Below are positions 48,940-50,590 of a stretch of DNA of 50,590 nucleotides, piece by piece. Location of the stretch: positions 1 through 50,590 of the forward strand of contig NZ_CBRF02000012.1 of NCBI RefSeq assembly GCF_000470315.2, in the 5' to 3' direction. Position 1 is the stretch's first letter. Every line of letters starts with the position of its first letter. Origin of the DNA: Psychromonas sp. SP041 (GTDB lineage: Bacteria > Pseudomonadota > Gammaproteobacteria > Enterobacterales > Psychromonadaceae). The translations under genes and the position numbers were made by a program. Under the pieces are notes generated by a model. That model was not told where the DNA came from and made no database searches. It was given only the letters and a program-made list of their open reading frames with translations.

Positions 48940-49497
48940 ATGAATCGTTCTATGATCACAAAAGGCTTATTGATTGCTTTACCAATGTTAGCTATCAGTG
49001 CTTGTTCTTCAACTTCAGATGCTGATGCAGAAGCTCAACGCATTGCTGATCAAGCAGCAGCAAATGCAGCAGCGGCACAACAAGCAGCTCAAGATGCTGT
49101 ACAAACTGATACTATTCAAGCAATTGCACTAACTGCTGAAGAGAAATTAGTTGAAATGTACACAAGTGCAATCTTAGAAACTACAATCAACTTTGAGTTC
49201 GATCAATCTGTGATCTCTCCTAAGTACGCGTTAATCTTAGATGCACATGCAAAATACTTAGTAAACAACACTGACAAATCAATTACGGTTGAAGGTCATG
49301 CTGATGAATTAGGTACACCTGAATACAATATCGCACTAGGCGAACGTCGTGGTTTAGCTGTTTCAACTTACCTAGAAAACATGGGTGTTGCAGCAAGTCA
49401 AATTACAGTTGTAAGCTACGGTGAAGAGAAACCAGTTAATCTTGGACATAATGAGATGGCTCGTTCTGAAAACCGTCGTGCAGAATTAGTTTACTAA
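48940..49497 (+). CDS. pal: peptidoglycan-associated lipoprotein Pal
   Basis: 185 aa. Lipoprotein signal with lipobox ISAC (Cys22), an Ala/Gln-rich linker, and an OmpA-like domain (INFEFDQSVISPKYALILDAHAKYL, then TVEGHADELGTPEYNIALGERRGLAVSTYL, then YGEEKP) that binds the peptidoglycan stem peptide. It anchors the outer membrane during constriction. AAGGA lies before the ATG. Confidence 0.97.
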   Translation: MNRSMITKGLLIALPMLAISACSSTSDADAEAQRIADQAAANAAAAQQAAQDAVQTDTIQAIALTAEEKLVEMYTSAILETTINFEFDQSVISPKYALILDAHAKYLVNNTDKSITVEGHADELGTPEYNIALGERRGLAVSTYLENMGVAASQITVVSYGEEKPVNLGHNEMARSENRRAELVY

Positions 49498-49503
49498 TTT
49501 TAT

Positions 49504-50247
49504 ATGAAAAAACGTAATACTACAGCGGCCATTCTTTTGGCCGCTTTTTTCTCTACGTCCATCTATGCTGCAGCACCTATTTCTGATGCAACTGTTAGCA
49601 CAGCAAGTAATGCTGAGTTACTCAAACGCATGGATGAATTGACCCGTGTGATGACAATTCGCAATAAAATGCAAATTCGTTTTCAAACTCAAATTGATCA
49701 GCTTGGACAAGAAGTTAATCAAATCAAAGGTTCGATTGAAGTATTTAATAATCAATTAGAGCAAATAGAAGACCGCCAACGTAATCTCTATCAAATGTTA
49801 GATGAACGTCAGCAAGGCTCTTCAACCAATCAATCTAATTCTGTACCAGACTCTAACTTATCTTCTGGTGATGGAACTGATAAAAGCGCATACCAATCAG
49901 CTGTAAATTTAGTACTTAATGACAAACAATATCAACAAGCTATTACTGCTTTTGAAGCCTTTGTTATTGATCATCCTAAATCAAGCTATGTACCTAATGC
50001 ACAATATTGGTTAGGACAGCTTTTATATAAAGAGAAAAAGCGTAAAGAAGCTAAAACTGCTTTTTTAGTCGTGACAGAGCAATATCCTGAATCGAATAAA
50101 CGCGCTGATGCTTTGCTTAAAATTGGTATTATTGATGAATATTCAGGGGCAATTGACTCTGCTAAATCATATTATCAAAAAACGATTACTGAATACCCAA
50201 GTTCTTCTGCTGCGAGCTTAGCGGATAAACGTCTTAAAGCGCTTTAA
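49504..50247 (+). CDS. cpoB: Tol-Pal associated periplasmic protein CpoB
   Basis: 247 aa with signal peptide (MKKRNTTAAILLAAFFSTSIYAA), an N-terminal coiled coil (NAELLKRMDELTRVMTIRN... to QLEQIEDRQRNLYQMLDE) that forms trimers, and a C-terminal TPR region with repeats (YQSAVNLVLNDKQYQQAITAFEAFV, then PNAQYWLGQLLYKEKKRKEAK, then SAKSYYQKTITEYPSSSAASLADKRLKAL). It links the Tol machine with PBP1B in cell division. No strong ribosome site is seen; translation may be coupled to pal. Confidence 0.93.
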   Translation: MKKRNTTAAILLAAFFSTSIYAAAPISDATVSTASNAELLKRMDELTRVMTIRNKMQIRFQTQIDQLGQEVNQIKGSIEVFNNQLEQIEDRQRNLYQMLDERQQGSSTNQSNSVPDSNLSSGDGTDKSAYQSAVNLVLNDKQYQQAITAFEAFVIDHPKSSYVPNAQYWLGQLLYKEKKRKEAKTAFLVVTEQYPESNKRADALLKIGIIDEYSGAIDSAKSYYQKTITEYPSSSAASLADKRLKAL

Positions 50248-50330: not shown

Positions 50331-50361
50331 TTGTTGCGCTATTAAAAAATTTCTATATTAT
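50331..50361 (+). promoter_or_regulatory. sigma-70 promoter of the tRNA-like array
   Basis: TTGTTG (50331-50336), 17 nt, then TATATT (50354-50359); TTGCGC with TATTAT (spacing 16) is an overlapping reading. ACGCCGC follows the -10, a GC-rich discriminator as in growth-rate-controlled tRNA and rRNA promoters. Confidence 0.65.
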
Positions 50362-50376
50362 ACGCCGCAGTTGAGA

Positions 50377-50416
50377 GGGACATGTGACTTAGTTCATGTT
50401 GTAACTTTTAATGAAA
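50377..50416 (+). pseudogene. degenerate tRNA-Lys-like fragment A
   Basis: GGGAC near the start, TTAGTTCA, and TAACTTTTAATGAA follow the order of tRNA-Lys acceptor 5' strand, D-arm and anticodon loop (CTTTTAAT), with much of the sequence between lost. It runs into fragment B. Weak on its own; credible because it heads the array. Confidence 0.35.
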
Positions 50417-50476
50417 AGCTCAGTTGGTAGAGCTATTTATCTATTTAATTTTCAAATAGATCTTAAATTAAAACCA
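50409..50476 (+). ncRNA. tRNA-Lys-like unit B (D-arm kept, no T-arm)
   Basis: The D-arm AGCTCAGTTGGTAGAGCT is intact (50417-50434). A long hairpin follows (ATTT, ATCTATTT, 7-nt loop, AAATAGAT, 3-nt bulge, AAAT; 50435-50468). The unit ends in ATTAAAACCA (50467-50476). No T-loop motif is visible, so it is not a standard tRNA. Confidence 0.5.
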
Positions 50477-50495
50477 AACCGTATATCTTGTATAT

Positions 50496-50564
50496 CGGTG
50501 TTTAGTTCAGTTGGTAGAGCTGCTAAGGCACTTTTAATTTAAAGTGAATTAGAAATTAAAACCA
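50496..50564 (+). ncRNA. tRNA-Lys-like unit C (D-arm kept, no T-arm)
   Basis: It starts CGGTGTTTAGTTCAGTTGGT at the place of a tRNA 5' end. The D-arm is AGTTC/GAGCT. The second hairpin is CTAA, GG, CACTTT, loop TAATTT, AAAGTG, AA, TTAG. It ends in ATTAAAACCA (50555-50564). Spacing to unit B is 87-88 bp. Stem sequences differ from B but remain paired. Confidence 0.5.
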
Positions 50565-50583
50565 AGCCATATAGTTTATATAT

Positions 50584-50590
50584 GGGCCGT
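50584..50590 (+). tRNA. possible start of a further tRNA-Lys or tRNA-like unit, cut by the window end
   Basis: GGGCCGT sits exactly 88 bp after the start of unit C and resembles the acceptor 5' strand of tRNA-Lys. Only seven bases are visible. Confidence 0.3.

Follow-up and report, generated by a model that had tools for sequence, protein, structure and literature searches.

tRNA pseudogenes and the spacers of tRNA operons are usually taken as inert. In Photobacterium phosphoreum, tRNA pseudogenes reportedly lie within a repetitive tRNA cluster, that of tRNA-Pro/His; the E. coli rtT RNA and tyrT repeats carry the 3' end of a tRNA and are found downstream in a tRNA operon; and T-armless mitochondrial tRNAs are built of a D-arm plus one more arm, with a CCA end. 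Published work describes tRNA arrays in mycobacteria (PMC5966550) and indicates that a tRNA-precursor spacer can be excised as a stable regulatory RNA, as in the case of the leuZ 3'ETS, an sRNA sponge (PMC5222698). The passages retrieved from the P. ingrahamii genome paper report 86 tRNA genes and mention no units of the kind discussed here (PMC2405808), and our literature search, run largely outside subscription journals, retrieved no apparent description of them.

The units in question lie at the end of a 50,590-nucleotide stretch of DNA from the marine bacterium Psychromonas sp. SP041 (the window), which corresponds to bases 1-50590 of contig 12 in genome G000. Like the pseudogenes reported for P. 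phosphoreum, they are decayed tRNA copies among the intact genes of one operon; unlike them, they have a single remodelled architecture in common, have been multiplied as units, and have kept their hairpin pairing through sequence change. As with the rtT/tyrT repeats, a piece of tRNA is repeated inside a tRNA operon, but here the piece is the 5' half and its position is upstream. With the T-armless mitochondrial tRNAs the units share a D-arm and a single further arm, the absence of a T-arm and a terminal CCA in the unit sequence, whereas they have no conserved acceptor stem, hold the anticodon-loop sequence of type-A units in a helix, and have normal tRNA-Lys genes alongside. The leuZ 3'ETS, too, is part of a polycistronic tRNA transcript without being tRNA itself, but it sits downstream of its tRNA (PMC5222698), while the units reported here are upstream of or between tRNAs, with none counted beyond the last Psychromonas tRNA-Lys.

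Two T-armless tRNA-Lys-derived units, B and C, were found at the window's end, 3' of pal and cpoB, in the following order:

48940..49497, + strand: pal (peptidoglycan-associated lipoprotein), the upstream neighbour; TIGR02802, 130.8 bits (cut-off 125.35)
49504..50247, + strand: cpoB/ybgF, the final protein gene ahead of the tRNA operon; TIGR02795, 129.5 bits (cut-off 90.1)
50334..50369, + strand: conserved promoter block, with TTGCGC at 50334-50339, 16 nt, TATTAT at 50356-50361 and the GC-rich ACGCCGCA; kept in 22/23 loci
50414..50476, + strand: unit B (leader unit), with D-arm at 50417-50434, second hairpin at 50439-50461 and terminal ATTAAAACCA; model R1 match at L005 215-277, 48.7 bits
50479..50498, + strand: spacer hairpin CCGTATAT..ATATCGG in the interval between units B and C; from sequence reading
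50501..50564, + strand: unit C, with D-arm at 50504-50521, second hairpin at 50523-50552 and terminal ATTAAAACCA; model R1 match at L005 302-365, 74.9 bits
50567..50585, + strand: spacer hairpin CCATATA..TATATGG, whose final two G double as bases 1-2 of the tRNA-Lys that follows; from sequence reading
50584..50590, + strand: GGGCCGT, 5' acceptor strand of a normal tRNA-Lys that a 100-N gap interrupts; the complete tRNA-Lys genes at L005 719, 864 and 1046 begin with these 7 bases

In unit B the second hairpin pairs ATCTATTT (50439-50446) with AAATAGAT (50454-50461); in unit C, CTAA (50523-50526) and CACTTT (50529-50534) pair with AAAGTG (50541-50546) and TTAG (50549-50552). The terminal ATTAAAACCA stands at 50467-50476 and 50555-50564, respectively. 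Both D-arms are those of tRNA-Lys and are spaced 87 apart, and a 55-nt repeat of 73% identity recurs at a spacing of 88. Folded alone, the two units form the D-arm and the second hairpin, with z-scores of -2.29 and -2.37, and 7 and 3 of 200 dinucleotide shuffles, respectively, folded as well. Reading, repeat and fold analysis therefore bear out the 87-88 bp repeat, the tRNA-Lys D-arm and the second hairpins noticed in the initial annotation, and the matches to pal and cpoB agree with the position downstream of tol-pal that it gave. The spacer hairpins it had described as a third hairpin are also present, but the last right arm, GGGC, turned out to be the 5' end of the normal tRNA-Lys.

The tandem array proposed there amounts to just two units within the window, but it continues past the window's end, which is the start of a 100-N assembly gap (L005 392-491). 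Extending the sequence rightward, as had been suggested, revealed four tRNA-Lys(UUU) genes, three complete and one truncated by the gap, which alternate with more units, up to nadA, and a search of the same genome with the window's end returned four matches, all within this cpoB-nadA tRNA-Lys cluster. Assemblies break inside such units, as shown by the gap here and by runs of N in G003, G009 and G015. With regard to the stable-RNA promoter also proposed, the block TTGCG(C/A)..TAT..ATACGCCGCAGTT is conserved at 22 of the 23 Psychromonas loci, G017 being divergent, with -10 letters that vary in G004, G006, G010, G020 and G021; a consensus promoter scan, however, finds 0 promoters at the locus (shuffles, mean 1.9). 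Between promoter and first unit lies a leader palindrome, ACATGTGACTTAGTTCATGT (window 50378-50399), and a TGTGA..TCAT motif resembling it is seen again in most leaders across the 23 loci.

Carrying the 5' half and D-arm of tRNA-Lys in tandem with intact copies, the units point to an origin in tRNA-gene duplication, and tRNA finders and Rfam miss them. Neither ARAGORN nor Rfam at the gathering threshold, a check the initial annotation had asked for, called a tRNA in the window units, and the hits of a permissive Rfam search of the window were all far under gathering scores; across L005 the same programs called the normal tRNA-Lys genes alone, and no other Rfam family reached its gathering score. 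The D-arm is present, with 98.4% of D-stem cells paired in the alignment described below (A1), and the T-arm is absent in all units read. An exposed seven-base anticodon loop is also absent, as CTTTT or CTGTTAA is paired inside the second hairpin in most Psychromonas folds. Such placement of the anticodon bases fits most Lys and Asn folds of this genus; as a general rule, anticodon sequestration was rejected, for the anticodon bases are partly unpaired in folds of a second genus (g6, see below). A 7-bp acceptor stem is possible in unit B alone. ATTAAAA is indeed complementary to TTTTAAT, as the annotation had stated, and allows unit B to close an acceptor-like stem of 7 bp with CCA at its end; this stem was nevertheless discarded as a defining feature, since, although it folds in unit B of G000 (the longer piece having a z-score of only -1.44), two close relatives, G019 and G020, have by eye not kept the matching bases, so it carries little weight. 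In tRNA, G18 and G19 contact the T-loop. Those D-loop positions vary in the Lys units, being G in 50/56 and 49/56, while variation in the D-stem is mainly C-to-U at one position and preserves pairing. The D-arm alone could be maintained by gene conversion from live tRNA genes.

The unit pattern was seen in seven stretches, six from Psychromonas (P. marina among them) and one from an uncultured Enterobacterales MAG. cpoB was found in 23 of 24 Psychromonas genomes, always followed by at least one tRNA-Lys (23/23), and units occur at 13 of these 23 loci. Twelve carry units with a second hairpin (G000, G002, G003, G007, G008, G009, G011, G013, G014, G018, G019 and G020), and the thirteenth, G016, has a short unit alone, made of a D-arm and AAAACCA. 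By eye, G005, G006, G021, G022 and G023 carry tRNA-Lys copies that have decayed in other ways and retain traces of the T-arm, no units separate the tRNAs of G001, G004, G010 and G017, and a decayed copy lies 3' of the last tRNA in G010 and G006; the G015 locus is largely N. With four loci devoid of units between tRNAs and five bearing other decayed copies, the units are therefore dispensable for a working tRNA-Lys operon. At L080 (G004) and L084 (G017), the last tRNA-Lys of the cluster has the anticodon CTT, one base off the neighbouring TTT genes. On a CpoB tree the 13 unit-bearing genomes fall into two groups, requiring two changes on the best tree and one in 12% of bootstrap trees. Units are more alike within a genome than between genomes (identity of 0.871 vs 0.777), and in G019 they have grown in tandem to 5.2 copies with an 89-bp period.

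Among 394 genomes drawn from the order, a Lys/Asn signature allowing up to 2 mismatches was present in 14, of which 13 are among the 24 Psychromonas and one is G154, where contig 52 (1-264; L100 / L159) holds a Psychromonas-like tRNA-Lys and unit array. We did not retain G154 as a genuine carrier: the junction between this array and the CpoB region native to the genome, itself divergent (36% identity), falls exactly on the 5' edge of a tRNA-Lys that has one mismatched acceptor pair, so that a chimeric MAG contig is probable, the alternative being recombination at the tRNA.

Psychromonas also has a sister family of units in its tRNA-Asn operons. These show a D-arm, nine bases rather than five before the anticodon-loop sequence, and then a hairpin in which the region around CTGTTAAT pairs with its downstream complement; again there is no T-arm. 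They were read in eight genomes, the window's own included; 27 units in all fit the pattern, and an extra match was found on contig 28 of G020. Because a Lys unit of G007, GAGCGATTGATACACTTTTAAT, agrees with GAGCGATAGAGACACTGTTAAT, the common Asn unit, in all but 3 of 22 positions, one of which is in the anticodon, the sequences suggest that Lys and Asn units likely have a common origin via copying between clusters. Seventeen further tRNA stretches of the window's genome comprised one Asn operon, one stretch with Asn copies of enlarged anticodon arm, and 15 in which no units of this kind were seen but only isolated decayed copies of tRNA-Pro, tRNA-fMet and tRNA-Gly (in L145, L154 and L148), the Pro and fMet copies having extra anticodon-arm bases. 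The Asn copies whose anticodon arm is enlarged, GGACTGTCCTCTTTTGAAGGTATAGCGTG, keep their T-arm and lie mostly 3' of the tRNA-Asn terminator; they were seen at L140 2228-2662 (G019, three copies 173 bp apart), L155 (G000 contig 25), L137 1739-1827 (G003) and L139 (G007), some being labelled tRNA-Gly(tcc) by ARAGORN, and may represent a further case of hairpin remodelling or the scar of an insertion.

Similar remodelling, with the 5' half kept, the T-arm lost, a new hairpin and AAAACCA, was encountered at the same locus in a second genus, g6 of family f6 (one genome of that family belonging to g28). There, tRNA-Lys follows cpoB in 29 of 30 loci, and in 20 loci one or more spacers match TTAGCTCAGT at up to 2 mismatches, a pattern short enough for chance matches. 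In nine loci (L177, L199, L201-L205, L209 and L210) the unit consists of GGGTCGTTAGCTCAG.. AGTTGGCTTT.. TCC, a hairpin and mostly AAAACCA (24 of 34 g6 units); other f6 spacers retain T-arm remnants. In g6 folds the 5' half of the tRNA pairs with itself and the new hairpin replaces the 3' half. The likeness between g6 and Psychromonas units may reflect shared ancestry or convergence. Another 26 loci came from other genomes in the order and covered 21 families, f6 among them; 16 of the loci had tRNA-Lys, and a spacer with a tRNA 5' half was flagged in five, of which we accepted G028 (f6) and G037 (f15). G038 proved to be a real tRNA broken by N, the G032 match looks like chance, and G099 has tRNA 3'-half remnants instead. 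The latter lie in a tRNA-Lys cluster spacer (L187), and in the spacer of G037 (L179) the 5' half is followed by a long GC-rich insert.

To what extent the second hairpin is constrained was approached through alignment, folding and arm exchange. Alignment A1 comprised 32 of 43 distinct type-A sequences, the truncated unit G011_1237 being left out; 93.9% of its cells are paired, and its covariation score of 0.190 exceeds that of shuffled (0.144 +/- 0.011; 0/500) and slid (0.096 or less) versions. Its 3 pairs with two-sided change were reached by 57/500 shuffles, its 10 pair types by 463/500. Because MAFFT displaces the 3' arm by one base in some rows, and RNAalifold on A1 predicts the D-arm alone, we chose an alignment-free test in which the 3' arms of hairpins are exchanged between genomes and refolded, independent drift predicting that native and swapped hairpins fold equally well. 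In the Psychromonas Lys units (39 units from 11 genomes, without the truncated G011_1237; tree not modelled), native hairpins averaged -6.46 kcal/mol and swapped ones -5.30, with 31 of 20000 permutations as low. In g6 (26 distinct hairpins from 34 units and 8 genomes, without the G123 units and L214; tree not modelled), the values were -5.88 and -2.18, with 1 of 50000, superseding a smaller set of 15 hairpins from 6 genomes (2/720). The Psychromonas Asn units, whose 5' arm is nearly invariant, gave -7.98 vs -7.39, which is not significant (2032/20000; 24 units, 8 genomes). These values support the claim that pairing in the second hairpin persists as its bases change: they argue against simple decay of the Lys-derived units, whose second hairpin has kept pairing through sequence change, more clearly in g6, where several hairpins differ by single steps via G-U pairs. 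Most single hairpins also beat their own dinucleotide shuffles, G007_1787 and G008_1434 being among the exceptions; the mean z-score of -3.48 includes a truncated 20-nt row at -25.6, and the other 44 average about -3.0. These folds were run without N-containing rows and without the T-arm-bearing copies of G005, G006 and G022, and the G000 units at L005 582-699 stood outside the initial unit collection and are among the matches of model R1.

Of the 44 normal tRNA-Lys at the 13 Psychromonas Lys loci, 38 are preceded by a unit no more than 125 nt away; 68 units precede the last tRNA, with none counted in the 250 nt after it. The eight Asn loci have a unit upstream of 22 of 27 tRNAs, with 35 units before the last tRNA and none after (enlarged-anticodon copies 3' of the terminator are not counted as units), and the seven g6 loci covered by this count have one upstream of 28 of 41, with 31 before and 2 after. 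Being tRNA-Lys-derived and standing before or between normal tRNA-Lys genes, the units are therefore spacers of the tRNA cluster. The initial annotation had set simple spacers against its own proposal; the units are spacers in fact, but their second hairpin stayed paired through change. The decaying cluster and the structured RNA family it had offered as options merge into one, in that the units are derived from tRNA-Lys and apparently constrained in their hairpin, which simple decay would not describe.

The reading we favor, with a probability of roughly 0.48, is that old tRNA duplicates have been retained as structured spacers within a polycistronic tRNA precursor, that recombination has spread them, and that they probably act in cis on RNA processing. 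Duplicated tRNA-Lys genes of the cpoB - tRNA-Lys - nadA operon would be the ancestors, and by shedding the T-arm and 3' acceptor strand they would have become self-contained strings of hairpins with short A/U-rich linkers. Recombination between repeats would spread and homogenise the units of each genome, while selection would retain the hairpins as folded, cis-acting spacers of a long untranslated precursor, whose single-stranded A/U-rich linkers would be offered to RNase E and other processing nucleases beside each normal tRNA. E. coli RNase E gains entry to tRNA precursors via unpaired segments next to those it cleaves, and preliminary evidence indicates that folded tRNA helps to align them (PMC3985628). 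Mean pairing in our units is 0.71 in the D-stem and 0.69 in the hairpin region, and the linker is 0.73 unpaired. Compact folds with unpaired linkers could set the site of RNase E entry, a role that is put forward as a hypothesis because just 28 of 53 linkers contain the core motif RNWUU.

A neutral origin would account for part of the same data: tRNA repeats duplicate and decay, gene conversion from the live tRNA-Lys refreshes the D-arm, and the hairpins stay paired through template switching at quasi-palindromes, with no function at all. Other decayed tRNA-Lys copies are common at the locus (five further Psychromonas loci, and T-arm-bearing g6 copies), so duplication and decay appear to be ongoing, and both the concerted evolution within genomes and the non-significant Asn arm exchange are in keeping with such an account. 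We consider it rather unlikely, however, as native hairpins outfold cross-genome swaps in two genera, and single-step changes through G-U pairs suit stepwise change better than templated copying in one step. If the units acted in trans instead, 55-75-nt CCA-ended RNAs would be cut from the precursor and serve as sponge or decoy for other RNAs or proteins, much as the leuZ 3'ETS illustrates that precursor spacers can turn into stable regulatory RNAs (PMC5222698). The compact fold and the AAAACCA end of most g6 units would suit this role, but the sequence of the second hairpin is replaced wholesale between species and therefore offers no conserved pairing seed, which makes a trans-acting role doubtful. 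Hardly more credible is the broader proposal of a recurrent new class, in which tRNA-Lys and -Asn copies of several gammaproteobacterial lineages were remodelled into AAAACCA-ended T-armless hairpin modules and freed as sRNAs tuning tRNA supply or processing in trans. As for folding insulators, which would prevent mispairing among neighbouring identical tRNAs, the presence of many identical tRNAs per transcript makes mispairing likely on reasoning alone, and yet the cloverleaf cost was 0.92 kcal/mol with native spacers against 0.61 with dinucleotide-shuffled ones, native being better in 13 of 38 tRNAs from 10 genomes, and we regard this role as highly improbable.

Taken as structured spacers, the units represent a lineage-specific, partly recurrent remodelling of tRNA copies within operons, whose origin, gene duplication, is ordinary and whose constraint is unusual. 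Related remodelling affects a second tRNA family, that of tRNA-Asn, in one of the two genera, and our results raise a testable question for these bacteria, namely whether selected structure in bacterial tRNA-operon spacers may control tRNA maturation.
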